This document shows, piece after piece, positions 11,326-40,199 of a DNA stretch of 64,000 nt. Source of the stretch: Akebia trifoliata. Its lineage: Eukaryota > Streptophyta > Magnoliopsida > Ranunculales > Lardizabalaceae. The stretch covers positions 23,919,288-23,983,287 of the forward strand of contig CM030717.1 in NCBI GenBank assembly GCA_017979445.1. The letters run 5' to 3'. Both the position numbers and the translations under genes were made by a program. How positions within the stretch are numbered: position 1 is the stretch's first letter; every line of letters begins with the position of its first letter. The notes under the pieces are model-generated. The model was not told where the DNA came from. It ran no database searches and saw only the letters and a program-made list of their open reading frames with translations.

Positions 11326-11357
11326 TAGTCTTTATCTTGATTTCACAAGTATGAAAC

Positions 11358-13101
11358 TGAAAGCGCCCTTCAATCCGCGGGGTGCGCGGATCCGCTTTTG
11401 ACCCTTGAGGTTTGGGAGTCGCCACCTAGTTATTACGGTCTAGGAACAGATCAATGATTCTAAACGGATAAAAATTAATCTAAAACCAAAAAAACTGAAT
11501 TCGGGGATCATGTTACGGGATTGGAAGGTGTTAGGCACCAACCCCGCCCGGCCAAAGCCGGTCTCTACTAAATTCCCAAGTAAATTACATTGCTAAAACC
11601 TAGATAAAAATAAATAAAAATAAAAATTTACCTTTCCGATAGCAAGGACTTTGTTCCCTCAGATCTGACAAAAAGAGCTCCTTGTACCGTGCTCCCTTGC
11701 TTCCTTCTGTCTCCGGATTTGACTTCGGATCTCCTAGACCGAAGTATCTCCTTGCTTTTGGATCTGAACTCTTCAAGTTTGTTGCGGATTTGGGGGTGTT
11801 TTTGGAAGGCTTTTAGGCGTTTCTTATGCTAAAATCGAAGGGGGGATGTTAGGTAAGGAGTTGGGACTCCAAAACTAGGGTTTATGGGGGGCTAGGGGAA
11901 CTTCTAGACCTACTTCTCTTAGGGTTTATGATTTGATACGAAAATAGGGTGTGAGCACCTCTATTTATAGAATTTTTTTTAAGGTTGATTTGGATAGAGT
12001 TAGTGTTTAATTAGAGATCTTTTAATTAGAGTTGTGTTTTAGTTAAAATTGTTTTAGGTAGAATTGTGTTTTAATTAGAATTATTTTAGGTAGAATTGTT
12101 TTTAAGTTAGAACTCTATTAGATAGAGTTATTATTTAATTAGAATTCTATTATGACTTTTGGTCTTATTTGATTGACTTTTAATGTTTTGACTTTAGTCT
12201 TAATTAATTGACTTTTAATATTTTGACTTCAGTCTTGCTTAATTGACTTTAATTTTGACTTTAGTCTCACTTGATTGACTTTAATACTTTGACTACAGTC
12301 TTGCTTGATTGACTTTAAATTTTTGGAGAACCCCCTTCCATTATTTCTTTAATTCTTTGGACCCCCAAATGGAGGGGTCCTTAAAGAAATATCCCACGAA
12401 CCCTCAACAATTTTACCCGAAAGTCCGATTGATCGATTTTTTAGGTTCAAAATTTTAAATTAATTTCATCAATGTTTCACTTTAATTATTTAATATTTTA
12501 TTTATTAATTTCGAATTTTTTAATTATGAAAATTGTGAAATTACCGTTTTGCCCCCCGAGAGGACTTTTCACGTTTTAAACCGGTTTTTAATGTTCTAGG
12601 ATGTTTTAGAATCAATTTTTCGTAAGGAATTCAATGGAAATATTAGTTTTTATTATTTATGAAAAAAAATTTGTGTGAAATGGTCGTGAACTTTATGAGG
12701 GGCATTTTCGTAATTTTGTCAAATTCTGTTAAAATTGGTGAAATGATTTATTTGGTTCCAATTTGTTATTTTATGTGTTCGAGAGAGTTTTCCTAATCGT
12801 AACGTAGGCTCTAGGGTCGTTTTGAGGTTAGGGGTATTTTGGTAATTTAATCATTTTTAGTGATTTTTATCGTGAAGTTTCTTTTTGGTCTGCAAGATGA
12901 TGATTTCTATGTTTCTAGGGTCGTATTTTCCTAGCGTAGCGTGGTTTCTAAGGTTTTATCAATTCGAGATACCTCATCCGGATTTCTAAAACACATCTGG
13001 TAACAAAATAAAGCAACGGAATACACATCCATCATTGGGAATCATTGCAATCGGGTTGACGAGTTGATTAATTAGGCGGATGCAAAAATGGGGTGTCTAC
13101 A
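11358..13101 (-). mobile_element. Nested solo LTR (element A family)
   Basis: 1744 bp from TGAAAGCGCCC to GGGGTGTCTACA, flanked by a perfect 5-bp duplication GAAAC (11353-11357 and 13102-13106). A minus-strand TATA box (CTATAAATAG) lies at 11961-11970. It aligns from end to end with the LTR at 6598-8312, including the GATCCGCGGGG...GCGGATCCGC inverted repeat at its inner end. No internal region is present. It is inserted in LTR F, so it is younger than that LTR. Confidence 0.92.
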
Positions 13102-13106
13102 GAAAC

Positions 13107-15600: not shown

Positions 15601-15603
15601 ACA

Positions 15604-15942
15604 ACTTGAAACCTTCCGGAAACTCAACACTGATTGGTCACATGTGAAACCCAACAACAAGGTTGTTCGAGGGTTTGATAGCTCAAGAATGGATTTCCTG
15701 GGAGAAGTAAACCTACCTATCACAATAGGCCCGTGCACATTCGAAGTAACATTTGAAGTCATGGAAATACCAACGACATTCAACCTGTTACTTGGCAGAC
15801 CTTAGATCCATGTAGCCGAAGCTGTACCTTCTTCTCTACACCAGAGAGTCAAATTCATCATGGGGCAAAGAATGATATCATTACTGGCAGAGAACTTGAT
15901 CCTGACTGGCAGAGCTCCGGACGTGCCGTTTATTATATAGAA
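15604..15942 (+). pseudogene. pro: Protease, 3' portion (element B)
   Basis: Resumes the frame broken at 9934 with LETFRKLNTDWSHVKPNNKV. It continues through the second conserved protease words GPCTFEVTFEVMEIPTTFNL and LLGRP. A TAG replaces the Trp codon after LLGRP (element C reads LLGRPWIH). Another stop lies near 15939, just before the next open segment. Confidence 0.85.
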
Positions 15943-16743
15943 ATGACGAAAGACAATGCACTCTACCATTCATACCAATTCGCTGCTGTTAATCACATCA
16001 AAAAAGGAAATGAGAAGATAAAAGCAAAACTATCAAGAACAAGTCTGATGATTGGTCGGGTCATGAAAAGGGCAGGCTATCGACCCAAGCAAGGGTTGGG
16101 ACCAGGAAGAAGAGGAAGAGCTATACTGGTCGAAGCGAGAAAACATACTCCCTATTTTGGTCTGGAGTATAGGCCCACGAAAATGGATATTGCAGAAATG
16201 AATGATAAGAAAAAAGAGCTTCGACTAGTGAGAAGGCAAAACCGTGAACCGAACATCTGGAATCTGGGCCGAGTCCCTCACATCAGTGTTAGCTTCCCAA
16301 GATCACATGCCAGACTCGACAGCTTATCAGAACCACCATCAGCAAAAAAGTCAAAAAGGGTAAATCCCAAATCAATGCACATTCAAGAAGACCCAATCGT
16401 AGAGTCCCAATCATCTTTCGAAGAAGGCATTGATGTTCTATTCAATGGGGATTCCGATGAAAGTCCATCAGAAACTGTTCCAAAATCCACTAAAGTGGAG
16501 GTCACTACCAACCAAGAGAACAACTCACCATTTTCATCAGGCATTGACTGGGCATTAGTCGTCATCCCGTCAAGCTTGGGAGGGACTATGCCCCAATCTA
16601 AATCATCCAACGAATCACTTGCTCATCTCATCCGCCCCCTCAGAGAAGGGGAGACATTGCACAACTGGGAGGAATTCCCATTGACACTTGAGACTGTCGA
16701 AGCCCCCCAAAAAAATGCCGTTAGGCGACATCAAGTTGCCTGA
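15943..16743 (+). pseudogene. Pol segment with G-patch-like motif (element B)
   Basis: Open for 266 residues, beginning MTKDNALYHSYQFAAV and containing a glycine-rich G-patch-like motif (KRAGYRPKQGLGPGRRGRA). G-patch-like segments between protease and RT are usual in Tat-type gypsy polyproteins. The rest is acidic linker (QSSFEEGIDVLFNGDSDES). The corresponding part of element C on the minus strand is 31940-32810, where the frame is broken. It is part of the polyprotein and not a separate gene. Confidence 0.75.
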
Positions 16744-17065
16744 GGATCATAACGAGCCCTCGTCCTCGGGTAAAGACTGTTTTGGGGGCTCCTTATCTTT
16801 ATTAACAAATTTGCATGATTGTTCTTCTTATTTCAGGTATTTAGAAAATCACAAAAAAATAAATATTTCTCAAAAAGCAAAAAAATCAAAAATTTCTCAA
16901 AAATAAAAAAAATCAAAAAGTTTTCAAAATTGCAAAAAAATAGATATCTTTCAAAAACCAAAAAAAGAGTTTTCAAGGGACCTGTCTTCATCAAATGAGT
17001 ACTTAGATAAAACAGAATTTGAAAGAAACGAGTATGATTTCGATCTTGAACTCTACTTCGACCTC
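16744..17065 (+). other. Pol linker before RT (element B)
   Basis: Aligns with 31541-31910 of element C. It holds DHNEPSSSGKDCFGGSLSLL and then an A-rich stretch with stops (Lys-rich in one frame). No domain is recognised. It is spacer sequence between the G-patch-like segment and RT. Confidence 0.6.
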
Positions 17066-18200
17066 ATGGGGATAAAAGAAGAGTCTGAGGATGAAATGGA
17101 GTACCCACCCAAAGAAATCAAAGATTTGGTAGAACGTCACGAAAGAGGTGTTCAACCAAACATCGAGGATACAGATTCAATCAATCTTGGTACCGAAGAG
17201 GACCCACGAATTGTCAAAATAGGAGCTTTGTTAACGTCACAGCAAAAAGAATAAATGGTTGAATTCCTACGGAACTATCAGGACGTCTTCGCATGGTCAT
17301 ACAGAGATATGCCGGGGTTAGATACAGATCTCGTTGTTCACAAGTTGCCAATCGCTTCTGGAAGTAAGCCAATCAAACAAAAACTGAGAAAATTGAAGTC
17401 TGAATGGAGCCTCAAGGTCAAAGATGAGGTCATGAAGCAGTTTGAAGCAGGGTTTCTTGCAGTTTCTACGTACTCGGAATGGCTAGCTAACATCGTCATA
17501 GTACCAAAGAAGGACGTAAAGGTACGCATGTGTGTTGACTATTGAGACTTGAATCGGGCCAGTCCTAAGGATGATTTTCCACTTCCACACATCGACACTC
17601 TAGTCGACAGTACAGCAGGGCATGGCATGTTCTCGTTCATGGATGGCTTCTCAGGATATAACCAGATAAAAATGACAGAAGAAGACTAAGAAAAGATAGA
17701 GTTCATCACACCATGGGGTACTTTCCACTACAAAGTCATGCCATTCAGGTTGAAAAATGCAGGGGCGACTTACCAACGGGCAATGACCGCATTATTCCAC
17801 GACATGATCCATAAGGAAATAGAGGTCTACATAGACGACATGATCACTAAATCCGGCATAGAAGAAGATCATCTGGTAAATCTGAAGAAGTTGTTCGACA
17901 GACTCAGAAAGTACAGCTTAAGGTTAAATCCAGCAAAATATAATTCGGTGAGACATCAGGCAAGCTATTGGGGTTCATTGTCAGCAGAAGAGGCATTGAA
18001 ATAGATCCAGCAAATACTAAATATATCCTTGAGATGAAAGCACCTGTTACAGAAAAGGACGTTCGGGGCTTTTTGGAAAGAATACAGTATATCAGTCGGT
18101 TTATAGCACAATTGACGCCTATCTGTGGACCAGTATCCAAGTTACTGAGGAAAGATACACCGAAAAAGTGGATCAAAGACTGTCAGGAAGTATTCGACAA
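17066..18200 (+). pseudogene. pol: Reverse transcriptase (element B)
   Basis: Begins with the leader MGIKEESEDEMEYPPKEIKD and the usual FAWSYRDMPGLDTDLVVHKL. RT motifs follow: LANIVIVPKKD, MCVDY, FSFMDGFSGYNQIKM, YKVMPFRLKNAGATYQRAMT and the catalytic EVYIDDM near 17830, with both aspartates kept. Damage includes TAA near 17250, TGA replacing the Arg of CVDYRDLN near 17542, TAA after MTEED near 17688, and a frameshift near 17940 in LNPAKC. It cannot be translated as one chain. Confidence 0.9.
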
Positions 18201-18645
18201 GATCAAGCAATATCTGCTCAATCCACCAGTCTTAGTCCCTCCTACTCCAAGGCGGCCTCTGCTGATGTACATCTCAATACAAGAAACATCAATGGGATGT
18301 GTGCTAGGGCAACATGATGAATTGAGACGGAAGGAACAGACCATCTACTATCTCAGTAAGAAATTCATTGATTACGAAGTGAAATATTCAACACTTGAGA
18401 AGACTTGCTGTGCATTAGTCTGGGCATCTCAACGACTACGTCATTATTTGCTCAGTTACTCGAATGCTTATCACCAGGATGGACCCCCTGAAGTACCTAT
18501 TCGAGAAACCCGCACTAACAGGCCATACAGTAAAATGGCAACTATTGTTATCAGAGTTTGACATCACCTATGTTACTCAAAAAGCCATCAAAGGGCAAGC
18601 CATTGCTGACCACCTCGCTGAGCATCCACTGCCTGATTCTTTCCG
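18201..18645 (+). pseudogene. pol: gypsy RNase H (gRNH) and tether (element B)
   Basis: Follows RT directly. It reads LLMYISIQETSMGCVLGQHD, then YYLSKKFIDYEVKYSTLEKT, which is the RNase H fold with weakened catalytic positions as is common in Tat elements. A frameshift near 18460 moves the frame to DPLKYLFEKPALTGHTVKWQ. The tether AIADHLAEHPLPD follows near 18595-18640, leading to the second RNase H. Confidence 0.8.
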
Positions 18646-18699
18646 GATGAAGCCATACTATTTATCGAGATTGAGGATGATGACGACGAACCAGGTTGA

Positions 18700-19095
18700 A
18701 AAATGAACTTCGACGGAGTAGCCAATCATAAAGGAAACGGAACAAGGGTAGTTTTGATCAAGTCAAATGGGTCCCACGTACCGATCGCCATCAGATTAAA
18801 ATTCCATTGCTCTAACAACGAGGCCGAATACGAAGCATGCATAGCAGGGTTAAAAGCAGTACTGTATCTCGACGTAGATGAGATCGATGTTTTCGAAGAC
18901 TCAAGCTTAGTAATCTATCAAACGATCGGAGAATGGAATACCTGAGAACAGAGACTGGTCCTTTACCACGAGTATCTAAAGGAGCTAAGCTCGCGTTTTG
19001 ACTAGAACTCATTCACCTACATGCCAAGAACTAAAAATCAGTTCGCTGATACACTTGCTTCTATGATTAGTATTTCAGAAGATCTGGTCATTGAC
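18700..19095 (+). pseudogene. pol: Second, archaeal-like RNase H (aRNH) (element B)
   Basis: MNFDGVANHKGNGTRVVLIK, then NNEAEYEACIAGLKA, then DVFEDSSLVIYQ show the D...E...D catalytic series of type I RNase H. A second RNase H between gRNH and integrase is a known mark of the plant Tat/Ogre lineage. A TGA follows GEWNT near 18944, and further stops precede the DA(L)ASM helix. The equivalent in element C is at 29400-29900. Confidence 0.82.
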
Positions 19096-20413
19096 CCAAT
19101 TGAGATTGGAATTTAGGACGAGCCAGCTTACTATCTTCCCGTCGAAGTTGAAGAATCCGAAGAAGAGCCTTGGTATTCGGACATCAGGGGATATCTCGAG
19201 GATCCTTCCCTCAGATGCAACGCCAAATGATCATAGAACTATCCAGAAATTGACAGGGCAATTCTTCATCAGTAATGGCATCCTGTATATGAAATCGTAC
19301 CACGAGGTCTTGCTCCGATGCGTGGCTAAAATAGAAGCGAAACGATTAATCGAGACTATACAAGGTGGGGTCTGTGGGCCCCACATGAATGGACACATGC
19401 TAGCCAAAAAGGTTATGAGGATGGGGTACTATTGGTCGACAATGGAAAACAACTGCTATCAGCATGTTCACAAATGCCATCTATACCAGATATAAACCAA
19501 CAAGATCAATGCTCCACCATCAGAATTTCATAACATGACTACGCCTTGGCCCTTCTCGCTCTAAGGAATGGACGTCATCGGGCCGATCTCACCTAAAGCT
19601 ACAAATGGGCATCGCTTCATTCTAGTAGCTATCGACTACTTCACCAAGTGGGTAGAAGCTGCTTCATACGCCAACATTACGAGAAACAATGTCCTGAAGT
19701 TTGTCAAGAACAACATTGTCTGCAGATATGGGTTTCCCAGCGGATTAGTGACTGATAATGCCAAAAACTTCAAAAATAAGGATATGATCAAGTTGTGCGA
19801 AGATTTTCAGATTACTCATCATAACTCTGTACCCTATAGACCTAAGATGAACGGGGCAGTCGAGGCAACCAACAAAAATATCAAAAAAATTATCGAGAAG
19901 ATGGCAGTTACGTACAAGGATTGGCACGACATGTTGCCTTTTGCACTTCACGCCTATCGAACCTCGTTCAGAATTTCGACTGGGGCAACTCCATATTCAT
20001 TGGTTTACAGAATGGAAGCAGTTTTACCTGTGGAGGTCGAGATCCCTTCCCTCCGGATCCCAAAAGAAGCAGAGTTGGATAAAGCTAAATGGATTCAAGC
20101 ACGGTTCGACCAGTTAAATCTAATCGAAGAGAAACGTCTTGCAGCCATCTGCCACGGACAAATCTATCAACGACGGATAGCCCGTGCCTACAATAAGAAA
20201 GTCAAACCTAGAGATTTCTCACCAGGAGACCTTGTTCTGAAGAAGATTCTGCCAATCCAAGAAGACGTTAGAGGAAAATTCAGACCAAACTATGAGGGAC
20301 CATTCATCGTGAAGAAGGTGATGACGAGATAAGCTCTGATCCTTACAGAGATGAACGGACAAGTATTCCCGCAACCGATCAATGCTGACACTGTCAAGAA
20401 ATATTACACCTGA
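19096..20413 (+). pseudogene. pol: Integrase (element B)
   Basis: HHCC zinc finger with HMNGHMLAKK near 19383. The last Cys of CHLCQI is Tyr here. The core has D at MDVIGP (19568), D at LVTDNAK (near 19750) and E at NGAVEATNKN (near 19855), so the DDE set is kept. The C-terminal part has TPYSLVYRMEAVLPVEVEIP and the GPY/F-like GKFRPNYEGPFIVKK. Stops occur after CHLYQI, before MDVIGP, and near 20330. The chain ends VKKYYT-stop at 20411-20413. Confidence 0.9.
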
Positions 20414-21782
20414 GAACTGATCCTGAGATGACAAAAGTCCATCTTTGTATCCCAAACAAACTATCTAACCCTAGTCAACCCTTTTGAGCCATCACGTTCA
20501 TTTCTTAACCTAAGACTGGGGCAAATCAACAATTACAAAATGATAAAAAAAAAAAACCAAAATAACACAAAAGAAAGGAAAAGCAAATTAAAAGTATCAA
20601 GATACTCCTGGCCCGCATGAGGATAAACTGTGAACGGCTAAAAATACAAAATAATTAAAAAAATCAAAAACTCGAATACTTGATCTGAGCTCAACCCAAA
20701 TCTCCAGCCTAAACAAGTTCGAGAGACGCTGGGAGGAGACATAGATCACCTTTTCGAAATAAAAATATGCGAATACCAAGTGTAAACCACTCTAACTACA
20801 TTCAGACCTTAAACTTTTTAACCTTTCACTACCATGACCCTAAGCCAACGTTTCATCCCAACAAAAGTCATTTTTGATCAGGGAATGTTTCAGGGTAACA
20901 CAATGACAATTGCAGCATCAATGATCTTGCAACTTGGTCCGGACCTCTAAAGTCTTATTAGTCGTTGGAAGACTCGAGAGGGGAATCCAGGTCTAACATT
21001 CAAAAAAAAAGAGTACTCGAAGTATAGAGTAATCGATCTCGTGGTTCAACTTGAGTTGTCGAATCATGAATAGTCATCAATAAACTCGAGAGGGGAATCT
21101 AGATCGATTACTCCAGAAAAAGTGCCACTACAAGAGTAGAGTCATCGATCTCGCAGCTCAACTTGAGTCACCAAGCCACAGAGACACAGAGACTACGAAT
21201 AGAACTGAAATGTAAAAATCCAAACAAATACAAGCATAGTCTAAAAGGGCATAGTGAAAACCTGAAAGGTCGCTATGAGTAAAAGAATCAGACTGTTGCA
21301 AGATCAAAACCATCTACACGATGAAAATCCCAAAAAGGGATATCGATGCGCAAAAACGTGGAAACCAGGTCTGGTGAAAATCGTAACTGGCACCAGGGGC
21401 AATATAAAAAAAATAACTCCTAGCCCGCAAGAGTATAAACTGTGGACGACAAAATCTTTTTCAAAACCCATAACCCAAACAGACAACAATTTTTCAAAAT
21501 CAGGGCACTGGGAATGACTCTAAAGGAATCAAAATAATAATTGACGTTTATATCCTCTGTGGTTGGCAAAAATACCAAGATCGTCACAACCAAAGATTTA
21601 ACCAACTCTGTATTTACCGTACTCATTTGATAAAGAAATTTCATGAAATTACATTTCAAAAACTACTATTTTTGGCCAATGATGATGAATGTAGGACTCA
21701 TTTGACAAAATTTCAATTTTCAGAAACATTAGATAAACCTGAGGTAAAGTAAGTACAAAACCTATTTTATTTGCATTAATCT
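20414..21782 (+). other. 3' UTR of element B, proximal part
   Basis: No gene. It is homologous in reverse complement to 26800-28150 of element C. It contains an approximately 111-bp tandem duplication beginning CTCGAGAGGGGAATC (20973 and 21084). A separate repeat, ACTCCTGGCCCGCATGAGG / AACTCCTAGCCCGCAAGAG, occurs near 20605 and 21415. It is cut at 21782 by element C, and the homology resumes at 44533. Confidence 0.75.
21778..21782. repeat. Target-site duplication of element C, left copy
   Basis: AATCT, identical to 44533-44537 at the other end of element C. Confidence 0.95.
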
Positions 21783-23325
21783 TGTAGATACATGATCTCG
21801 TCATTACGATGACCACATCTATTAAGGTTAGGAGTCGCCACCATTCATTTTCGTAAGTGGGTGTGAATAGTCACCTGATGTACATTTTTTGAAAAAGTGA
21901 CATTTTTGGCGTTTAGTGACTCTCGATGGATAGGAACTAATCGAACCTTGAGATTCGGGGTAAGCGGTTCGGTTGGAGAAAAGGGAACATGTTAGGCACC
22001 CTTTTCTCCCCACTAAATAGTGGTAACCTCAACTCAACTCGGTCATTTGATTTTAAAAAATACAAAAAATAAAGTGCCACATGTGTGCATTTGTACTCTA
22101 GGTAGGGATTTACTTTTGGCTCGATCATACAATCATCTCATTGAAAGAGATGATCCTAATGGATCATTTGCCTTGAGATCCACTCATCTTGAATTCATTT
22201 AAAATAAATGAAGAGGAGAGGGGATAATAAAAGAGGGAGGAGGAGAGGGTAGAGAGAGAGGGGGGATTGCCTTGAACCCACCTTGAAGCTTTAAAGTTTT
22301 CTTTTCTTTTCTTTCCCTCCTTTTCCTTCTTTGAGTCTTCTTGAGTCCTTAGTAGAATATGAGAGTATGAGAATGGGAAGAGGTGATTAGAGGGAGTAGG
22401 GATTTTTTTTTTTAGTGAGACTTGAGGAGTATTAGTGAAAGAGAATTGGTAAGATTTTTCTTTGTGAGAGTGGGGGGAGAATTTTTGTAGTGAAAGTTGG
22501 GAGGATTTTTTGGGAAGAAGATGAAGATATTTATAGATCTTGAGGAGTTATTTTAGGGATATAATAGGGTAAAATAAAGAGAAGTGGTAGAATGGTGTGT
22601 GGTTTAAGAGAAAGGTGGGGGTAAATTAGAGATGATTGAAGGGCATTTGTGTAAGAAGGGTAAATGGATTGGATCTTTCAACCCATTTGGGTTGAGTATT
22701 AGATGAAATAAAATAAGTGAGAGTGGTTGAGAGGATGGGATTGTGTAAGAGAGTAATTAATTGGTGAAGTAAGTTGAGGGGATGGGATTTTAATTAAAAG
22801 AAGGATTGTGTAAGAAGGTGGTTGATGATATTTTGGGAAGGTGTGGGAGATGATGCCATGTGTCAAAATGGGTGGAGATGAAGGGTTGAGATGGGTTGAT
22901 AAGAGAAGTTGAGTGTTTGACTTGAGTGGATGGGTGTAGGCTTAGGTTGTAGATGTGGGTTTTGTAGGGAATGATGATGGTAGATTAAGGAAAGTATAGG
23001 TTAGGGGTGTGGGTAGATGTGTTTGATTTGAGAGAAAAGGTGATGGATTGAGGTGTGGGTAGGTGAGGTTTAAAGAAAATTAATAGGATAGGTAGTTGGA
23101 TGAGGGAAGTGAGATGGGGTGATGACATGTGTCACCTTTTGATGATAAAAATAGTGATTGGTTCATGTGGGTAGTGGTTTGTGGGTTAGGATTATGGGTT
23201 GGATAATGAATTGGGTATGGATAGTGGTTTGTAGGCTTTTAGTGTATTGGCCTTGGGTTTTAGGAGGGTTGTGGGTTATTTTGGCTTGGATAGAATTTGT
23301 TTTGGGTTGGATTTTTGGGGGTAGG

Positions 23326-24557
23326 TGATGAGTGTCTCCAAACACTCAATTATACGCATATTTTTTGGATATTTATCTCTATTTTTATACCTATTTCTCT
23401 ATATTAAGATAATAATCATGATAAGTCTCAAACCACCATGTTGCATGTTAATTAGATATAATTATATATAAATAAATTCATTTACTAGATAAATCTAATT
23501 ACGTGTGTTTCTTGTGTAGAAAATCAACAATTTGGAATTAAAATCTCAAGGCAAAAGTATTTGGACCCACTTTGGAATGTCCTAACACTTTGGAATGCCC
23601 TAATCCTTTGGAATGCCCTAATCCTTAACTCATATTCTCTTCTTTTGTCTTTTTGTGCAAAGAAAAGTGGAGGCTACTTTTAGACTCTTCTACACACATT
23701 TTTCTCTATAAATAGAGTCTCCATTTCTAGAGAAAGGGTCCCATCTTGGTTCTCTTATCCAAGACTCCTTTAATCTAAGGCTCTTTGCCTATTCTCTTAT
23801 TTTTTGTATTTTCATTTTCTAGTTATTTTCTTTTGGCTAATTAGTCTTGTAAGAAGTAGAAGAAGAAGAAGTTGTAATTTTCTCCATGAAATGAAGAAAA
23901 GTTCTTTCATCTCTTATCTTCCCTCTTTTGCAATGACATTAGGCTAAGTTCCCCTCCATTGGAGAGTGGAAAAGCCTAGAGTAAGTTCTTGTGTTATTTT
24001 TAATTTCATGCCTTTATTTTATTTAAAATGCTTATGAATTCTCTTTAAGTTTCTTGCACCTTTTATTCTTAATATAAATACTTTATGCTTAGATTAGATC
24101 AAGATAAAGTATGCTTAAATTAGATAATTGATAGTAGGAAGTTTTCAAAGAATTCTACTTTGTTTATGTTCCCTTATTTCATTTCATTTGCAAAACTTTC
24201 CGATCTAAGGAACTAACACCAAGCCCTTACGATTGAGTTATAAAAAGGCTTGAAACTAAGAATTTCTCATCAACATGTTCTAGGTAGATCCACCTCCAAT
24301 GGTGTTTTAATTTCATAAGTTTACTTGCTTTTAATTTCATTTACTTTAGTTTCTTTTCTAGTAATTTTACATTTTCTTATAAGTTCAAAAATATAAAGAA
24401 AAACAGTTTTAATTCCTTTTAGTTAATTTGAATTTTATCTTCTTAGCTTAACTCTATTCCTCCTTTATCTTGGGTTCAATCCCCTACTTGCCCCACAAGT
24501 AAAGTAAACATAAGATTATTATTAACTCCGGTGAGAAGAACAACGATAGTCTCATCA
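23326..24557 (+). mobile_element. Solo LTR H inside 3' LTR of element C
   Basis: 1232 bp with 7-bp terminal inverted repeats TGATGAG...CTCATCA and a perfect 5-bp duplication GTAGG (23321-23325 and 24558-24562). The 5' LTR of C has the uninterrupted sequence at 44018-44027. A plus-strand TATA box CTATAAATAG at 23706-23715 sets its orientation. No internal region is present. It belongs to a different LTR family from the Ogre-type LTRs here. Confidence 0.95.
23706..23715 (+). promoter_or_regulatory. TATA box of solo LTR H
   Basis: CTATAAATAG, about 380 bp into the LTR and followed by pyrimidine-rich sequence. It is a typical LTR core promoter position. Confidence 0.6.
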
Positions 24558-25075
24558 GTAGGTTCATTTTATGATTTAGGTGATATGGGATCGATTTTAG
24601 GTTAAGGGTAAGGTGAGAAATTAATTTGGGAAAGATTTGAGGGCTTGTGGGCTTTGAATGGGCTTAAGGTATTTGCGGATTCGGAGGTGGAGTGGTGGAA
24701 GTAGAGGAGGGGTAGGCATCCCAAGTCTCACATTTTTTAATTTATTAATTTTTTTGAGATTTTTGACAATCATTGATTTGATCAAAAAATGCCACGTGTT
24801 GGCAAATCAGGCTTTTTAGGCCCGTTGGTGAATTTTTTCAAACATTTGGCATTTTTAATTTTGGAAACGGAGTGGTGAATATTGGAAAAGCGGAGGGTTG
24901 GCCGAGTCCTCTTGGCGGGCCTCCCAAACCATTAAGAGGTCTTAGGGGCCTTGGTTATATCAAAATATCACTTTTTAATGACTTGGGCCCTTAAGGCCCG
25001 TTGGGCCATTTATTTGAAAAATCTATATTTTTGGGCCCTTTCAAGTAGTGGCCCGTTCAAATTGAGGTGTTTACA

Positions 25076-25090
25076 GCTTCCCTTTTTTGC
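25076..25090 (-). promoter_or_regulatory. Polypurine tract of element C
   Basis: The minus strand reads CAAAAAAGGGAAGC directly before the LTR start TGTAAACACC. A purine run next to the 3' LTR is where plus-strand DNA synthesis is primed. It agrees with the PBS next to the other LTR, so the orientation of C is secure. Confidence 0.75.
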
Positions 25091-25458
25091 AGGAATTTCA
25101 TACAAAAAACTGCAAAGAATAGACTAAACCCCTATTTGTACAGGTCAGAGAAATTCTGTAAAAACGTGATCTTGAATTACCGATTTTATTAAAGATTTTT
25201 GTGGAAAATGGCTACTCAAGCACGAGGTCTGACAGAGTTTTACCTTATTAATTCCTTGATCTCGATGGCGCGGAGCTCGTGTGAGATCTTGGATTTTATG
25301 AAATTTTGATGAGTTTAGAAATTCAGATATTTCTTCAGTCGCATTTTAACAAATTGGAATTGAGTGCAACTCGAAAGGTTTTTGAAGTTTTTAATCCCTT
25401 TTCATTGCCTTCTTTTGTTGATTTTGCTCTATTTCTATCATAAGTTAACCCTCTCAAT
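25091..25458 (-). other. Sequence between HD-ZIP fragment stop and polypurine tract
   Basis: No coding content is recognised. It may be the 3' UTR of the captured gene followed by the original 3' end of element C. The boundary between the two cannot be placed without a relative lacking the capture. Confidence 0.4.
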
Positions 25459-26600
25459 TCATGCATTGTCCCTTGTAATGATACTTTTGATCCTTTCAAC
25501 GGTGTAATCACTGAGATTGTTAGCAGTTACCACAAATCCAAGAGAGAGTTTTGCAATTGGAACCGAATCGACCAGGATCTAGAATGCGACAATCAGTAGA
25601 GATCCACCAAACCCAACCTCCGTAATTCCACTTCTATTAATCATTGACCAATCTGAAAGTATAGCGAAACCTGAAGGCAGAAAGGCTACATAGTCTGGGT
25701 CACTTCTATTTAGAACATATTTATTGCAACAATATCAACAGGAGCATAAGCTGCGAACGAGCCTGTTGCATCGGTGCTACTCTCTTACAGTATCAACATA
25801 CTCTTTCGCACTTCTTGATTCATTATCATACCAATATCTGTAGCTGGCATGTTACTAGTCATAACACTTGCAAGGCGTTCGCACTGTCGATCTAAGGTAG
25901 CAACCCATTGTTTTGCTCCAAATCCAAAGTCAGAGTTAACTAATGTTCTATATGTACTGTGAACTGCTTTGTCATCCACTTCTACATGTTCGACCCATAT
26001 GACCTTGGAGTAACCATTTGATATTTCTTGGATTAAACCGCCTGATGGCCTTCTTCGACATCTTGATATTGGGGTAGGACACAAATGATCCAAGGAAACA
26101 TTGACCACCATCCAAATCCCCTCGACATGTTGTTTACAATACCTTACAAAGAAACTTTCTCAAGTCAGAACCAGAGGTGAAGGGACTTGAAATTCTATTG
26201 TCATCACTTGAAGGGCTCCATTATAGTTTTCTACTAGCCTGTTGATACGACCTCAAGAGTCATTATTTTTTAAACAATGCTAGAAAACACGGTGGACCAC
26301 TGATTCACATCCATAAGGATCTCAACAAGGTTAATGTGATTCATGATAACAATGGTAGTTTCTCGAGAAGCTTCTGACTTCAATCCAAATGATTTTGGTC
26401 CAATACCCCTCAGGAATGTTTGCATGTACTCATCTTCACTTAAAATCTCATAAGCATGATCAAGACTATGCACTCACAACGGTTTTCCTAGTTGGGCCAT
26501 TCTTATAAACTCTTCCATTGCTGCAACTACGAGTTCGATGATCAATGGTTTATCTGTTTCAGTAGGATCGGAGAGTGATCTCAGGAGGGGCTTGCTTGAG
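25459..26600 (-). pseudogene. Captured HD-ZIP IV gene fragment (START domain to C-terminus) in element C
   Basis: Minus-strand translation matches plant class IV homeodomain-leucine zipper proteins (ANL2/PDF2/HDG group). In order it shows DKPLIIELVVAAMEEFIRMA near 26550, [20 protein letters not shown] then [78 protein letters not shown], then [28 protein letters not shown] and the C-terminal [12 protein letters not shown]...TVERIK, with its stop at 25459-25461. The homeodomain and zipper are absent. Roughly 110 residues are missing between RKSML and ILxESSTDATGS. Three or more in-frame stops (for example Trp to TGA after GKPL) and at least two frameshifts make it a pseudogene. It is in sense with C, between pol and the PPT, and absent from the visible 3' UTR of B. 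Confidence 0.9.
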
Positions 26601-28155
26601 GTCCCTGCTTCGACGCCTTCGCGTCTTGTCTAGTGAGTCGTGATGCTTCGAATGCAAAAGTGATGATGAGTCAGGCTGTCCGAATCCGTGTTTTAGAGGA
26701 ACGCCTTGACTCTTTTTTTTTATGATGTTTGATTGAATACGTTGTATTAACTCTTTTTGTATTTTCTTTTCATTATTTGAATGTATGCAAAATGTTGAAA
26801 GATTAATGCAAAGAAAATAGGCTTTGTACTTACTTGGCCTCAGGTGTATCTAATGCTTTGAAAACTTGAAGTTTGAATAAGTCCTAGAATCTTCATCATC
26901 GGTCAAAATAGTAATTTTTCTTTTTGAAATTTTATGAAATATCTTTATCAAATGAGTACGATAAATTCAGAGTTTGTAAAATCTTTGGTTGCGACGATCT
27001 TGGTATTTTTGCCAATCACAAAGGATATAAATGTCAATTGCTCTTTTGATTCTTTTAGAGTCATTCCTAGTGCCCTGGTATTGGAAGACTATTATCTGTT
27101 TGGGTCTCAGGATTTTGAAAAGATTTTGTCGTTCACAGTTTATACTCTTGCGGGCCAGGAGTTTTTTTTTTTGTTAACCTTTATTGCCCCTGATGCCAAT
27201 TACGGTTTTCATCAGATCCGGTTTCTACATTTTTACGCATCGACGTCTTTTTTGGGATTTCCATCGTGCCAGTGGCTTTGATCTTGCCATAGTCTGATTC
27301 TTTTACTCATAGCACCCTTTCAGGTTTTCACTATGCCCTTTCAAACCATGCTTGTATTTTTCTAGATTTTTCATTACAATTTTGCTCGGAGTCTCTGTGT
27401 CTTTGTGGCTTGGTGACTCAAGTTGAGCTACACAATCGATGACTCTACTCTTGTAGTGGCAGTCTTTCTTGAGTAATAGATCTAGATTCCCCTCTCGAGT
27501 TTGCTGACGACTATTCGTGGTTCGACAACTCAAGTTAAGCTGCGAGATCGGCTACTCTACACTTCGAGTACTCTTTTTTTTTCGAATATCCGATCTGGAT
27601 TCCCCTCTCGAGTCTTCCAACGACTAACAAGGCTTTGAGGTCCTGACCAAGTTGCAAGATCATTGGTGCTGCCACTGTCGTTATGTTGCCCTAGAACATT
27701 TCCTGATCAAAAAGGACTTTAAGTAGGATGAAACGTTGGCTTAGGCTTATGGTAGTGGAAGGTTACAAAAAGGTTAAGGTATAGGTTTGTCTAGAGTGGG
27801 TTAGACTTGGGATTTGTTTATTTTTACTTTGAAAAGGTGATCTATGTCTCCTCTCAACGTCTCTCGAACTTTTTTAGGCTGGAGATTTGGGTCGAGCTTA
27901 GATCAAGTATTCGAGTTTTTGATTTTTTTGTATTTTTAGCCGTTCACAGTTTATCCTCATGCAGGCCAGGAGTAATTTGATGCTTTGATCTTTCTGATTT
28001 TCCTTTCTTTTGCCCTTTTCTTTGTATCATTTCGTAGTTGTTGACTTGCCCCAGTCTTAGGTTAAGAAATGAACGTGATGGCTCAAACGGGTTGACTAAG
28101 GTTGATAGTTGGTTTAGAATAGCGAAGATGGCCTTTCGTCGTCTCACGATCAGTT
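26601..28155 (-). other. 3' UTR of element C
   Basis: Homologous in reverse complement to 20414-21782 and 44533-44700 of element B. It includes CTCGAGAGGGGAATC-type words near 27485 and 27595, and CAGGTTTTCACTATG near 27323. The homology with B stops at about 26640, where the HD-ZIP IV fragment begins shortly after. Confidence 0.75.
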
Positions 28156-29350
28156 TTAGGCATAGTATTTCTTGACAGTGTCAACATTGATTGGTTGCAG
28201 GAAGACTTGTCCGTCCATTTCTGTGAGAATCAGAGCTCCTCCCGTCATTACCTTTTGCACGATGAATGGTCCCTCGTAGTTTGGTCGAAACTTTTCCTTA
28301 GCGTCTTCTTGGATTGGCAAAATTTTCTTTAAGACCAGGTCTCCTGGCGAAAAATTTCTAGGCTTGACTTTTTTGTTGTAGGCTCGAGCTATTCGTCGTT
28401 AATAGATTTATCCATGGCAAATGGCTGCAAGACGTTTCTCTTCAATCAGATTCAACTGATCAAACCGAGCTTGAATCCATTCAGATTCATCTAACTCTGC
28501 TTCTTTTAAGATTCGGAGGGAGGGAATCTCAACCTCTACGGGTAAGACTGCTTCTATTCCGTAAACCAATGAATACGGAGTTGCCCCAATCGAAGTTTGA
28601 ACGAGGTTCGGTAGGCGTGTAGTGCAAAGGGCAATATGTCATGCCAATCTTTGTATGTAACTACCATCTTCTCGATTATTTTCTTGATGTTCTTGTTGGC
28701 TGCCTCGACTGCGCCATTCATCTTAGGTCTGTAGGGTACAGAGTTGTGATGTGTGATCTGGAAGTCTTCGCACATTTTGATCATATCTTTGTTCTTGAAG
28801 TTCTTAGCATTGTCAGTTACCAATCCGCTTGGAAGTCCATATCGGCAAATGATGTTGTTCTTGACAAACTTCATGACATTGCTCTTAGTGACATTAGCGT
28901 ATGAAGCAGCTTCTACCCACTTGGTGAAGTAATCGATAGCAACAAGGATGAAACGATGCCCGTTTGTAACTTTTGGTGAGATCTGCCCAATAACGTCCAT
29001 GCCCCAGAGTGAAAAGGGCCAAGGAGTGGCATATTATGTAGTTCTGAAGGTGGGGCATTGATCTTTTTGGCATAGATTTGACATAGATGGCATTTGCTGA
29101 TATGTTGATAGCAATCACTCTTCATTGTCAACCAATAGTATCCCATCCTCATGATTTTCTTAGCCAGCATATGACCATTCATGTGGGGCCCACAGACTCC
29201 CCCATGTACAGTCTCAATTAGTCGTTTTGTTTTTGTTTTTGCCACAAACCTGAGTAAGATCTCATGGTACGACTTCTTATACAGAATACCGTTGCTCAAG
29301 AAAAATTGTCCTGCTAGCTTCCGAATGGTCCTTCTATCATTTAGCATTGC
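28156..29350 (-). pseudogene. pol: Integrase (element C)
   Basis: Ends VKKYYA-stop at 28156-28158. The HHCC finger is intact (HMNGHMLAKK...KCHLCQI near 29180-29070). The DDE residues are at MDVIGQ (29000), LVTDNAK and NGAVEAANKN. A frame change lies between the finger and the core near 28990, and another near 28570 in ISTGATPYSLVY. The C-terminal part reads GNLRF-like GPF motif words near 28265. It is very similar to the integrase of B but with different lesions. Confidence 0.9.
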
Positions 29351-29975
29351 ATCTGAGGGGAGCGTTCGATCTTCAAGATATGCCTTGATGTCTGAGTATC
29401 ATGGCTTTTCCTCGGATTCTTCTACTTCGATAGGTAGACAGTAAGTCGGTTCATCTTGAATTCCAATCTTGATAAGGTCGATGATTAAGGCTTCCGAGAT
29501 ACTGATCATAGAAGCAAGTGTAGCTAGTGCATCTACAAACTGATTCTTAGCTCTCGGCATGTATGTGAATGAAATTCTATCAAAGCATGAGCTTAGTTCC
29601 TCCAAATACTCATGGTAAGAGACCAGTCTCTATTCTTAGGTCTTTCATTCTCCAGTCGTCAGATAGACTACTAAGCTTGAATCTCCGAAAACATCGATCT
29701 CATCTACCTCGAGATCCAGTGCTACTTTCAACCCTGCTATGCATGCTTCCTATTCAGCCTCGTTGTTAGAACATTAGAATTTCAATCTGATTGCAATTGG
29801 TAAGTGGGATCCATCTAGCTTGATCAAAACTGCCTCTATTCCGTTTCCTTTCTGATTGGCTGCTCTGTCGAAGTACATTTTCCAGCCTGGTTCATCATCA
29901 TCGTCCTCAATCTCGGTGAGTAGTATGGCTTCATCAGGAAAGTTCGTCTTTAGTGATTCGTAGTCAGGCAATGGG
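29351..29975 (-). pseudogene. pol: Archaeal-like RNase H (element C)
   Basis: WKMYFDRAANQKGNGIEAVL near 29880, NNEAEYEACIAGLK near 29760, and VFGDSSLVVY near 29690 give the D...E...D series. A later helix with QFVDALATLASM lies near 29530. Stops interrupt it near 29775 (after RLKF), near 29638 and near 29630. The tether AIADHLTEHPLPD precedes it. It is the second of two RNase H domains. Confidence 0.82.
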
Positions 29976-31540
29976 TGCTCGGTGAGATGGTCGGCGATGG
30001 CTTGCCCTTTAATGGTTTTTTGAGTGACATAGGTGATGTCAAACTCAGATAACAATAGTTGCCATTTTGCAGTGCGACCTGTTAATGCTAATTTCTCGAA
30101 TAGGTATTTCAGGGGGTCCATCTTGGCGATTAGCATAGTTGAGTAACTCAGCAAATAGTGACGTAGTAGTTAAGATGCCCAGACTAATACGCAGCAAGTC
30201 TTCTCAAGCGTTGAATATTTTACTTCGTACTCAGTAAATTTTTTGCTGAGATAATAGATGGCCTGTTCCTTCCATCCTGATTTATCGTGTTGCCCTAACA
30301 CACACCCCATTGACGTTTCTTGCACCGAGATGTACATCAGCAAAGGTCGCCCTAGAGTAGGAGGGACTAGGACTGGTGGATTGAGCAGATATTGCTTGAT
30401 CTTATCGAATGCTTCCTGACAGTCTTCGTTCCACTTTTTCAGTGTGTCTTTCCTGAGTAGCTTGAAAATTGGCTCACAGATAGGCATAAGCTAAGTAATA
30501 AAATGGCTAATATACTGTATTCTCCCCAAGAATGCTCAAACATCTCTCTCCGAAACGGGTGCTTTCATCTCGAGGATATACTTAGTTTTTACCGGATCTA
30601 TCTCGATGCCTCTTCTGCTGACGATGAAACCTAGTAGTTTGTCTGATGTTGCCCCGAATAAACATTTTGCAAGATTTAACCTTAAACTATACTTCCTCAG
30701 CCTGTCAAACAACTTTTTTAGATTCACTAGATGATCTTCTTCAATGTCGGATTTAGCAATCATGTCGTCTACGTAGACCTCCATTTTCTTGTGGATCATA
30801 TCGTGGAATAGTGCGGTCATTGCCCGTTGGTAAGTCGTCCCTACCTTCTTCAGTCCGAATGGCATGACTTTATAGTGGAAAGTACCCCCTGGTGTGATAA
30901 ATGCAGTCTTTTCTTGGTCTTCTTCCGTCATTTTTATCTGGTTATAGCTTGAAAATTCATCCATGAACGAGAACATGCCGTGCCCTGCTGTACTATCGAC
31001 TAGAGTGTCGATGTGTGGAAGTGGGAAATCATCCTTAGGACTGGCCTTGTTCAGGTCTCAATAGTCAACACACATGCGTACCTTCCCATCTTTCTTGGGT
31101 ACTAGGACGACATTAGCCAACCACTCAGGGTACGTAGAGACTACAAGAAATCTGGCTTCGAACTGTTTCATGACCTCGTCCTTGACCTTGAGGGTCTATT
31201 CTGACTTTAATCTTCTCAATTTCTGCTTGATCGGTTTGCTTCCGGAGGCAATTGGTAACTTGTGCACAACCAGATCTATGTCCAATCCCGACATATCCTT
31301 GTACGACCATGCGAAAATATCTTGATAGTTTCGTAAGAGTTCGATCATTTCTTCTTTCTGTTGCGACGTTAATAAGCCTCCGATCTTGACAATTCGTAGG
31401 TCCTCTTCGGTATCAAGATTGATTGAATCTGTATCCTCAATGTTTGACTGTACACCTTTCTCGTGACGTTCTACCAAGTCTTTGATTTCTTTAGGCGGGT
31501 ACTCCATTTCGTCCTCAGACTCTTCTTCGATCCCCATGAG
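29976..31540 (-). pseudogene. pol: Reverse transcriptase and gRNH (element C)
   Basis: Starts MGIEEESEDEMEYPPKEIKD at 31537. Motifs follow: MSGLDIDLVVHKLPIASGSK, CVDY-stop-DLN near 31060, FSFMDEFSSYNQIKM, YKVMPFGLKKVGTTYQRAM, and the catalytic EVYVDDM near 30780. The gRNH follows with LLMYISVQETSMGCVLGQHD near 30340 and YYLSKKFTEYEVKYSTLEKT near 30250. Stops occur after CVDY, after SERDV near 30535, near 30490 and near 30170. The stop replacing Arg in CVDYRDLN is also present in B. Confidence 0.9.
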
Positions 31541-31910
31541 GTCAAAGTCAAGTTCAAGATCGAAATCATACTCGTCCTTTTCAAATTCTGTTTTATCTAA
31601 ATACTCATTTGATTAAGACAGATCCCTTGAAAACTCTTTTTTTGATTTTTGGAAAATATATATTTTCTTTTAATTTTGAAAATAATTTGATTTTTTTGTC
31701 TTTCGAGAAGTTTTTAATTTTTTTGCTTTTTGAGGAATATTTATTTTTTTGTTGCTTTTCGAATACTTGAAATAAGAAGAACAATCATGCAAATTCATTA
31801 ATAAAGATAGGGAGCCCTCAAAACAGTCTTTACCAGAGGACGAGGGCTCGTTATGATCCTCGGACAAACTAGATTCGTTTAACGACATTTTTTTTTAGGC
31901 CTCAATAGCC
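31541..31910 (-). other. Pol linker before RT (element C)
   Basis: Counterpart of 16744-17065 in B. It has DHNEPSSSGKDCFEGSLSLL, then a Lys-rich A-tract region. No domain is recognised. Confidence 0.6.
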
Positions 31911-33279
31911 TCAAGGGTTAACGGGAATTCCTCCCAGTTGTTCAGAACTTCCCTTCTCTGAGGGGGCGAATGAGATGCGAAAGTGATTTGTTGGGTGATT
32001 TGGTCGGTGGTTCGAAGATGACCATGATCTCCGATTGATCTTTGTCAAGTTGGGGCATAGTCCCTCCCAAGCTTGGTGGGATGACGACTGAAGCCCAGTC
32101 GATGCCAGTGGGGAATGGTGATTTTTTCTCTTGGCTCGTGGTGATTTCCACGTTGGTGGATTCTGGAGTTGTTTCTGATAGACTTTCATCAGAATCCCCA
32201 TTGAATAAGACATCAATGCCTTCTATGAAGGATGATTGGGACTCAACGACTAAATCTTCTTGACTGTGCTGCGGTTTGAAACTCACTATTTTCTTTTTCC
32301 TGGTTGGCTTTGTTGACAGTGGTTCTGAAAGACTGTTGGGTCTGACTTGTGATTTCGAGAAATTGACGCTGATATGAGGAATCCTGCCCAGATTCCAGAC
32401 ATTAGGCTCACGATTTTATTTTCTGACTAACTGGAGTTCCCTTTTTTTGTCGTTCATTTCCATAATATCTTTTTTCATGGGCCTAAATCCCAAACCAAAA
32501 TAAGGAGTATGTTTTTTTGCTTCAACTGGCGTAGCTTTTCCTTTTCCTCCCGGTCCTAACCCTTGTCTGGGTCGATAACCTGCCTTTTTCAAGACCCGAC
32601 CAATCATCAGATTTGCCCTTGATAGTTCTGCCTTCACCTTCTCTTTCCCTTTTTCAACGTGGATAACAGCAGCGAACTGATAAGAATGATATAACGTCTT
32701 GTCTTTCGTCATCTCTATGTCAATAAAGGGGATGTCTGGAGCTCTCCCAGCTAGAATCAAGTTTTCTGCTAGTACAGATATCATCCTCTGCCCCATAATA
32801 AATTTGACTATTTGATGCAAAGAGGAAGGCACTGCCCCAGCAATATGAATCCATGGCCTGCCCAACAGCAAGTTGAAAGTTGTAGGTATCTCCATGACCT
32901 CGAATGTTACCTCGAAGGTGCAGGGTCCTATAGTGATTGGTAAATCTATCTCTCCCAAAGAGTCTCTTCTCGAGCTGTCGAAACCTCGGACAACCTTCTT
33001 GTTGGGTTTAACATGCGACCAGTCCGCATTAAGTTTTCGAAAGGTTTCGAGAGGATAGACATTGAGGGCTGAACCATTATCGATGAACACCCTAGCAACC
33101 ATCATGTCCTTGCACATGACCATGATATTTAGTGGCTCAACGTGCCCCCGTCCCTCTAGCACGAACTCACTTTCTGTGAAGACGATGGGGTTGGGAGCCA
33201 TGATTTGACCCACTGTTTGTTCTAATTGTGCTGGTAAAGTAGTTGTAGGTACATGTGATTTTCCCAGAATTCTCAACAA
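31911..33279 (-). pseudogene. pro: Protease and G-patch-like segment (element C)
   Basis: Open for 287 residues from MLRILGKSHVPTTTLPAQLE. The active-site word VFIDNGSALNVYPL lies near 33080. Conserved words TIGPCTFEVTFEVMEIPTTF and LLGRPWIHIAGAVPSSLHQI follow, then the glycine-rich KKAGYRPRQGLGPGGKGKAT near 32550. After about 32416 the frame is broken, and the acidic linker (VVESQSSFIEGIDVLFNGDS) follows at 32290-31940. It is the uninterrupted counterpart of the protease of B and shows what LTR F disrupted there. Confidence 0.88.
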
Positions 33280-33344
33280 TGCTTCTTGATGTTCTTCTGA
33301 CTTTTGTAGCAGACCCAGGATGTTGATCTGAGCCGGTTGTTTGT

Positions 33345-35718
33345 TCAGTTGTCAAAGACATTGTCCTCACTCTTGCGAATAAGTTTAATGAAGTCTGCTA
33401 CTTCCTTGTCTGTCACCTTCCCTGTTTTCTCTTCTTTGCCCTCTTCGTTAATCTTGCCCTTGCCCTTTTCCTTTCTTTTTTTCTCATTCATTATTTCTTT
33501 TGTTTCTTCCCTGATGCTTACCCCTTTTTCTGGCAACTTTTGGCTCCTCCCTGCCTTTGTCATATGGCTAATGTCAGCCACTGTTACTTTTTTTCATGGT
33601 CTCAACCACTGCGATTGTGGTGATGGTGGTCTCGTAACTCTAAGGAATTGCTTGGTTGGAGCTATAGGGGAATGGTTTAGGTGAGCGGATGGTCATTGGA
33701 GGTGGGTCAGGTTTTACACTGAGAATGAGGGGTGGTGGTGGTGATTTGGATGTGGTGATGATAGGAGGAGTTGTGTGAGGAATTGATGGCATGTATGGAA
33801 TGACGAGAGGTGGTCATGGAGTGTAAGGTATATGAAGGGGGGGTCGGGTTGATCCCTGAAAAGTTGATAGTGTGTAGGGTGTAATAAGAGGAGGTCGGAT
33901 TGAATTTTGATGGCTTGGTAGTCCGTAAGGTATAACTAAAGGTGGTCGGGTAGTAGTATTTTGATGAGTGGGGTGGATGGTGAGGTCAGACAATCTGAGA
34001 GGTGGTAGTGAATTTTGGGATGAGTTTGTTGTATGGTGGTTGACTGTGTTAACCGCAGATGCTTTTGATTCCTTTGTTAAGTAGACCCTGATTTTTACTC
34101 TGATAGGCGCTATCAAGTCTGAGGGATTGAAGTCGAGTTCTCCACAAACAACATTTACCATGTGCTCACTCCCCTCTCCATTGTGAGTAGGTAGGGGGTT
34201 TTGATTGATATTTTGTTGTTGGAACGGGTTGGCAGGTCCATCCAGGATAAGAGCTTTCTTATCGATCAAATTTTGTACTTGATGTTTGAGCTGTCAGCAT
34301 TGATCTGTAGAGTGTCCTGGTGTACCCATATGAAATTCACAAAATAAGCTGGGGTTATACCCTGGTCCTTTCGTAGCCTCTGGATTTGGTGGTCGTTTCG
34401 TGAGGTACTCTCCCCTAAGCAAGAGCGGAAGTAATTCTGTCAGCGTCATAGGCAATCTAGTGAATACTCTGTTTACCCTCTTAGGTCGTGCTTGTTGATT
34501 TTGCCCATAATGTGGTGCTAGTTGTGCTTGTAGAGGAACTGTCTGAAAGAGATTCTACGATGTTGAAGCCCAAGCAGCTCGAGGTACTGGAGCCCAAAGG
34601 ACTTGTGGTGCCTGCAGCCTCTGAACTGGTGCTTGAATGAAAAGAGGTTGGCTGGGTTATACATTGTTGACTTGAGTTTCCTCTTTCTTTTTGACAAAAT
34701 CCACTAACTTCTTCTGTGTCGATGTCCCTACTGCTGCACTTAGAGCTGTAAAGTCGAATATTAGACCAGTTCGGATCCCATCCTCGACCCGGTCTGCCAC
34801 TTGAACTAAATTTGAGAAGGTGCCTGTAGTGTGTCCAACCAGATGAGTATAAAAGGCATGTCCTAGTGTTGAGATGAATGTGGTATTCATCTCTTGTTCA
34901 GTCATTACAGGCCTTACTTGTGAGGCAGACTCCCGCCACTTCTGGGCGTACTCTTTCACCGTCTCCCTTTGCTTTCTAGTCATCTTGGCCATATCATTTC
35001 GATCCAGACCCACATCTGTGCTGAACCGATAATTATGCCAGAACATTTCAGCCAAGTCTTGCCAACTTTTGATAAGCGTATGGTCCAATCCAGAAAACCA
35101 TTTGAGTGTTGGCCCTGTCAAGCTTCTTTGAAACAACTGCACCAGTAGCCTGTCATCTTCGCCGTATTGGCACATGGATCCGCAGTATAGTTTTAGATAT
35201 GACAGAGGACACCCCACCCCATTGTACTTCTCAAACTCCGGACATTTGAACTTGGCCGGCAACTGTGCATTTGGGTAAAAGTAGAAGTCCTTAAACCATG
35301 TCCCGCTCATAGTGTTGAGGCCTTTCATCTTCCTCATTTCTTCTTGCAAAGACTCGATTTGCTGAGCCAATTTTTCATCTGTTGCACTTTTAGCCTCTGT
35401 GGCCCTGTACTCGCATTCGCCATCAGGAATGACCACAGGGGGTGGTCGATTCTATGGAATATAAAGTGGGGGTCTCTGGTATTCAGGCACTACAGGAGGC
35501 ACGGTAGTCTGTGGTCCCTGTGGAGGTTGTTCGGGTAGATTTTGATTTGATCCGGACGCATGTTACTCTATTTTTTGGGCTTGTATGATGCTGGCATTGG
35601 CTAACATGGCACTTACCATTTTTTCTTGCCTCTCAATTATTTTCAATAGTACTGCTATTTGTGGATCGATACCTGACGTTTCAACTTCTGAGGGTTGTGC
35701 GGGTTCGGAAGAACTCAT
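33345..35718 (-). pseudogene. gag: gag (element C)
   Basis: Probable start MSSSEPAQPSEVETSG at 35718. A coiled, Glu/Lys-rich segment follows, then the capsid-like core (FKCPEFEKYNGVGCPLSYLK, LKWFSGLD, WQDLAEMFWHNYRF, RETVKEYAQKWRESASQVRP), typical of Retrotrans_gag. Downstream is CEFHMGTPGHSTDQC near 34330-34290, a zinc-knuckle-like motif, followed by a TGA. A Pro-rich spacer and the Lys/Glu-rich linker (33345-33581) then lead to the protease. Stops occur near 35563, 35450, 34656 and 34295. Confidence 0.88.
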
Positions 35719-38855: not shown

Positions 38856-39009
38856 CATTTTGAATTTTGTACACCAACCCATTAAACAATTCTTTTATGT
38901 CATGATTATCCACAAAGAAACTAAAAGAAATTTTATTGAATTATTGAAAATTGCTTGACAGATAAGATTTTCCTTGAATAACAATTTTCAATAACTCTGT
39001 CTTACATTC

Positions 39010-40029: not shown

Positions 40030-40199
40030 AAGGTTTCAATCTATCTCCACCTCATAGAAGTACATGGTACATCTCAACATGAATTTTGCAAAGTTGAATT
40101 TCTCTACGGTGTGCATCCCCGTGATGGTTGTTTTGACCAACTGGTTGATTGGGTTATTACCTGCAGCTAGCATCCTGAGTTGACACAAAAGAATAGTTC

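Follow-up and report, generated by a model that had tools for sequence, protein, structure and literature searches.

LTR retrotransposons are already known to capture host genes, as in maize Bs1 and other elements (PMC13317346), and reported counts of genes captured by LTR elements are 672 for rice and 1,343 for sorghum, some of them associated with small RNAs (PMC3726574). The locus described here is an example of this process. Like the captures in maize, rice and sorghum, it consists of a host coding fragment within an LTR element (PMC13317346; PMC3726574), and it lies in sense, the orientation described as usual for genes transduced by retrotransposons (PMC7264820). Unlike them, it has as its carrier a giant Tat/Ogre-like element with gag-pol remains, and as its source an HD-ZIP IV gene.

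Closer in type of carrier are the orchid Gypsy_Pa_2799 elements, which are described as sister to pea Ogre and as bearing an extra ORF for an ALKBH5-like (2-ODD) RNA demethylase (PMC9289625). Here too, a Tat/Ogre relative holds an added gene of host-like origin, but the orchid ORF is intact, was retained through rounds of replication and is reported to be active in vitro, whereas the one that we describe is broken in the one copy seen (PMC9289625). In position, the fragment is also similar to the additional ORFs of plant LTR elements, including Retand, which occupy the region between pol and the 3′ LTR; the antisense ORFs of those elements are described as having no gene relatives outside the elements, whereas our fragment is in sense and clearly host-derived (PMC7264820, PMC11963269). 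The original prediction called a capture of this kind unusual, a view that the rice and sorghum counts (PMC3726574) and the orchid Ogre relatives (PMC9289625) do not support.

The converse case, in which an LTR element disrupts an HD-ZIP IV gene, is described in cucumber (PMC4696102). In a literature represented mostly by titles and the beginnings of abstracts, we found no report of an LTR element that had captured an HD-ZIP IV gene, which is weak evidence of absence.

Results

The carrier element and its neighborhood

We analyzed a window of 64,000 nt of Akebia trifoliata DNA. Blastn self-comparison and the letters at the edges delimit a Tat/Ogre-like LTR retrotransposon, element C, at 21,783–44,532 on the minus strand, flanked by the 5-bp target duplication AATCT (21,778–21,782 and 44,533–44,537). 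The same evidence places its 5′ LTR at 42,495–44,532 and its 3′ LTR at 21,783–25,075, both on the minus strand, as are all parts of C given below. A polypurine tract (AAAAAAGGGAAG plus one C; 25,076–25,088) adjoins the 3′ LTR, and the primer-binding-site-like sequence TGGCGACTCCACTGGGGA (42,474–42,491) lies 3 nt inside the 5′ LTR; the Ogre primer-binding site is described as antisense to tRNA-Arg (PMC9289625).

Ten frames of C were scanned for domains, two of which had no match. These frames contain gag at 34,660–35,451 (Retrotrans_gag, 3.1e-10), for which 3 of 359 candidate relatives were confirmed, the nearest from Vigna radiata at 38% identity; a frame between gag and reverse transcriptase at 32,419–33,351 (G-patch, 1.6e-06), where the protease region is assigned by position only; reverse transcriptase at 30,539–31,057 (RVT_1, 1e-24); its RNase H at 29,777–30,490 (RT_RNaseH_2, 1.8e-20, with RT_RNaseH as two pieces); and the integrase core at 28,557–29,033 (rve, 5.9e-14). 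Between RNase H and integrase, at 29,402–29,629, is a borderline second RNase H (RVT_3, 2.4e-04, scoring 21.5 bits where the cut-off is 21.6), a feature that is given as an Ogre and Retand trait when it precedes the integrase (PMC6317226). A possible ORF1 remnant lies 5′ of gag at 39,709–40,035, with a weak DUF7745 match (E = 0.0058) that is below the cut-off. The one piece of it that was scanned showed no match to the plant mobile domain, which is reported in the extra ORF 5′ of gag in 57% of Ogre elements (PMC6317226). The domain order of C is as expected for the Ogre/Retand branch of the Tat clade (PMC6317226), although some of the features score slightly below the cut-off.

Two further features of C were observed. 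Between the ORF1-like remnant and gag, 53-bp tandem repeats form a 2.9-kb array at 35,974–38,858; satellite DNA derived from retrotransposon tandem repeats has been described, with mention of Ogre (PMC7004042). The 3′ LTR holds a 1,232-bp TIR-type insertion at 23,326–24,557, which is bounded by TGATGAG...CTCATCA and flanked by the 5-bp duplication GTAGG; its empty site is visible in the 5′ LTR. This is probably a small DNA transposon that arrived later than C.

The target into which C inserted is an older relative, element B (15,596–21,782, plus strand), which is 82% identical to C at 26,799–33,061. B continues past C at 44,533 and is cut at about 44,788 by another LTR. The cut is made by the first of two LTR-like stretches at 44,789–48,959 that are related and lie head to tail (45,278–47,120 and 47,128–48,959, 75% identical). 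Elsewhere in the window, an LTR-sized direct-repeat pair (6,596–8,330 and 11,356–13,120, 79% identical, spanning 6,596–13,120) surrounds a stretch at 8,451–9,932 that matches C at 33,050–34,527 in inverted orientation. A 34-bp unit is repeated about 31 times in an array at 4–1,062, and direct and inverted repeats with units of about 165–392 bp are densely clustered at 59,196–62,989, where they possibly represent foldback or nested MITE copies.

Identity of the HD-ZIP IV fragment

Within C, at 25,459–26,590 on the minus strand, we find degenerate coding sequence of a class IV HD-ZIP gene of the ATML1/PDF2/HDG2/ROC2 group, which runs without introns from the pre-START region to the native TGA stop. 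The original prediction placed it at 25,459–26,600, which is correct to about 10 nt: coding similarity begins at 26,587, and the native TGA occupies 25,459–25,461. Both protein words on which it drew are present on the minus strand, in sense with gag-pol, DKPLIIELVVAAMEE in frame within 26,474–26,629 and TVERIK...DNA ending at 25,462.

The coding remains are distributed over three reading frames in six pieces. When five of the six were run singly against Pfam, START was above the cut-off in two (1.7e-05 and 1.2e-23), PDF2_C was below it in one, a 24-aa piece (5.8e-04), and the other two had no match at all. In the joined read-through, START (PF01852) reaches 7.9e-40 and the PDF2-like C-terminal domain (PF25797) 1.1e-27, over profile positions 95–238 of 241. 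A comparison with proteins gave 1,518 matches at E ≤ 1e-3 among 5,074 candidates, with a best E of 1.3e-163. These protein and domain matches bear out the HD-ZIP IV origin that had been proposed, and the similarity is far beyond chance.

Further protein comparisons used the best 120 of the 1,518 matches. Among these 120, the named entries are all from plants, for example MERISTEM L1, PROTODERMAL FACTOR 2, HDG2 and ROC2, while the unnamed ones give no taxonomic judgement. Across the 373 aligned columns, identity between the fragment and these best 120 peaks at 73% and averages 71%, compared with a mean identity of 81–88% for each of them to the others. In a tree of the fragment and 40 of the 120, it sits on a long branch (0.75) close to no particular species, and its finer placement within the group is unsure.

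The alignment begins at LLRS, ahead of START, and continues through the C-terminal end of the protein to the native TGA. The homeodomain/leucine zipper side is absent: in tblastn at E ≤ 1, the N-terminal parts of three relatives matched nothing across the whole window. Because homeodomain and leucine zipper were not found there, the segment is a piece of an HD-ZIP IV gene and not a member gene. A 124-aa piece of the fragment had no match at E ≤ 1 among PDB sequences and, among viral contigs, 27 pattern matches with 0 confirmed relatives; Rfam at gathering scores gave no match within the window.

Frame state, internal deletion and lack of introns

Five in-frame stops and two frameshifts break the fragment. 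Frame pieces and alignment place the frameshifts approximately, the first at 26,228–26,240 (near 26,235) and the second at 25,710–25,719 (near 25,716), both on the minus strand. The retained parts comprise the START and C-terminal regions, which could suggest that the element has kept them as a working extra ORF, for example for a dominant-negative START protein, and the active extra ORF reported in orchid Ogre relatives (PMC9289625) would be a precedent. Against the stops, the frameshifts, an internal deletion and the loss of 41 of 244 near-invariant columns, we consider this reading scarcely credible, and for the present copy a working ORF is ruled out by the stops, the frameshifts and the lost conserved columns. 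The frame of this copy is dead, and the fragment is most simply a non-coding passenger.

In the alignment, the internal deletion has its junction at 25,794–25,799 (minus strand), where ...RKSML is joined to MLILQES..., with Met-Leu common to both sides. About 110 residues are missing overall (about 112 as measured on the relative P0004); both anchor words occur in 110 of the best 120 of the 1,518 proteins, 88–140 residues apart. A gap at a shared Met-Leu is compatible with a jump during reverse transcription. We also considered exon skipping and rejected it, given the Met-Leu on both sides and the absence of the exact join word from all 161 fetched HD-ZIP-related proteins; this is not a strict exclusion, since a mutated join would escape an exact-word test. 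When fragment-sized proteins with the same join were sought, 41 of 49 candidates matched and none had the exact join; the best-scoring of the 41 showed 64% identity, and the top identity was 79%, over 36% of the query.

The fragment is intron-free, as 373 columns align over about 1,130 nt with no inserted stretch. The original prediction had set out intron absence as a point to check, and the continuous alignment supports it. The cucumber HD-ZIP IV gene CsGL3 is reported to have 10 exons (PMC4696102) and banana HD-ZIP IV genes 8–11 (PMC4740955). From these counts, which come from other species, introns would be expected in a genomic piece of this length, and the source was therefore most likely a spliced host mRNA.

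Flanks and junctions

The fragment lies in sense with gag-pol between the integrase core (28,557–29,033) and the polypurine tract/LTR start (25,075–25,088), 1.6 kb downstream of the final frame on the integrase side (28,159), with 370 nt separating it from the polypurine tract. Domain scan and polypurine tract/LTR sequence thus agree with the place between integrase and polypurine tract of a Tat/Ogre-like element that had been claimed for it. Upstream, the flank at 26,591–26,804 (minus strand) is element-derived and matches B at 44,533–44,704. BLAST similarity to B stops at 26,633, beyond which a weak forced global alignment reaches about 26,590, where HD-ZIP similarity starts. The fragment is carried by C, as it is bordered upstream by element sequence that also occurs in B and downstream by the polypurine tract and LTR. 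In the forced alignment, B retains about 35 nt beyond the point equivalent to the fragment, and these 35 nt gave no match to the HD-ZIP piece, which suggests, but hardly proves, that B is without the fragment.

The stretch between the native stop and the polypurine tract (25,092–25,458, minus strand) may be host 3′UTR, element sequence or both. Its only relatives within the window are a 44-nt match (E = 0.007) and a 35-nt match (E = 0.087), and the predicted folding of 25,092–25,461 is unremarkable (z −0.37). Conserved HD-ZIP IV 3′UTR motifs of 19 and 21 nt have been described (PMC8133684; PMC4740955). Beginning about 20 nt after the native stop is an A-rich stretch of 50 nt (25,389–25,438) with 60% A, a level reached by 26 of 2,000 shuffles; the longest A-run in the flanks compared below is 5.

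With the upstream capture junction blurred, microhomology at the capture ends was not seen. No word of at least 9 nt is shared between 26,521–26,760 and 25,060–25,480, and two 8-mers are common to both flanks, compared with 2.5 expected. A target duplication of the fragment's own had been named as the sign of a separate insertion; the flanks contain no direct repeat beyond chance.

LINE-made processed pseudogenes are intronless and 5′-truncated and retain the native stop, and the fragment is like them in all three features. Its truncated 5′ end, complete coding 3′ end and A-richness soon afterward are what one would expect of such a pseudogene. It is conceivable, then, that target-primed reverse transcription placed a processed HD-ZIP IV pseudogene into an Ogre-like copy, either C or its ancestor, with the element as target and not as agent. 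The A-rich 50 nt also speak for this. Unlike such pseudogenes, however, the fragment has no detectable target duplication of at least 9 nt in the flanks compared. The longest A-run there is 5, and a tail at that place would leave a 3′ non-coding stretch of no more than about 20 nt, whereas an HD-ZIP IV 3′UTR is reported to exceed 679 nt, a comparison with one HD-ZIP IV gene (PMC8133684). A fresh LINE insertion after C landed is further disfavored by the decay estimate below. Overall, a LINE origin in an ancestral copy is the main rival to template switching, though we regard it as unlikely.

Timing of the capture

The LTR pair of C differs by a K80 of 0.077 over 2,037 sites, or 0.039 per copy since insertion, and B and C differ by 0.198, or about 0.10 per lineage. 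The fragment retains 203 of 244 near-invariant HD-ZIP columns (83.2%), whereas the best 120 of the 1,518 matches keep at least 96.7%. Under simulated neutral decay at 0.0386, 88.5–95.5% of the 244 columns were kept (95% of 1,000 runs), and five or more stops, the number in the fragment being five, arose in 0.5% of 1,000 runs. The observed 83.2% falls inside the runs at 0.08 and 0.10 and just outside those at 0.06 and 0.12, which corresponds to a drift about twice that of the LTRs of C since insertion. Breaks are also denser in the fragment than in pol: there are 7 over its 1,130 nt, compared with a minimum of 11 across 5,193 nt of pol (one-sided p 0.03). The pol figure, counted in frames of at least 60 aa, is a lower bound, and at 15 breaks p rises to 0.08.

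Because the fragment has decayed more than the LTRs of C, it was probably aboard the element before C inserted. The original prediction had the fragment carried along by transposition, and this decay dating supports it as far as presence before insertion is probable. On the simplest view, the fragment would have entered the lineage leading to C around the time of the split from B or later, and before C landed. A separate insertion after C landed was considered and rejected, given decay in excess of the age of C and flanks with no direct repeat beyond chance.

The dating would be weakened if the source had been an already diverged or dead paralogue, since the same excess decay would result, and likewise if gene conversion had homogenized the LTRs. 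A dead donor is also the main attraction of a DNA-level route, in which an existing intronless HD-ZIP retrocopy was moved in by gene conversion or as a break-repair patch: the decay of the fragment beyond that of the LTRs would then be accounted for. Such a route requires a prior intronless donor, and we think it very unlikely.

Discussion

We favor, with moderate confidence, the reading that cDNA of a spliced HD-ZIP IV mRNA was template-switched into an ancestral Tat/Ogre-like element and then traveled as a passenger to C. Template switching is favored because the fragment is intron-free and in sense, because no duplication of its own was found and because its internal gap resembles a jump. 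The original prediction had offered read-through or template switching as routes. Template switching appears to fit better; LTR read-through is insufficient alone, since the insert sits inside the LTRs.

We infer the mRNA source, the template switch and the capture before insertion, and the sequence of events might have been as follows. A host mRNA of the ATML1/PDF2/HDG2/ROC2 group, already spliced, would have been co-packaged in a virus-like particle, where reverse transcriptase could have switched template to the host mRNA and back. The resulting 5′-truncated cDNA would have settled in an ancestral Tat/Ogre-like element, past the integrase and ahead of the polypurine tract, and been copied on as a non-coding passenger, decaying as it went. 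Copy C would finally have transposed into element B and brought the decayed fragment along.

A single broken copy is by itself ordinary genome history. It is tempting to speculate that a whole Ogre-like subfamily bears the HD-ZIP IV segment and that its transcripts or small RNAs dampen ATML1/PDF2-type epidermal regulators, an idea that we consider a very long shot. If it were true, element activity would be tied to epidermis development. A subfamily bearing the segment would make the host's epidermal HD-ZIP IV genes candidates for targeting by small RNAs from the element. The locus also serves as a worked example of how cargo decay, set against LTR divergence, can order capture and transposition from one copy, and with it a developmental regulator joins the genes that giant Tat/Ogre-like elements have acquired.
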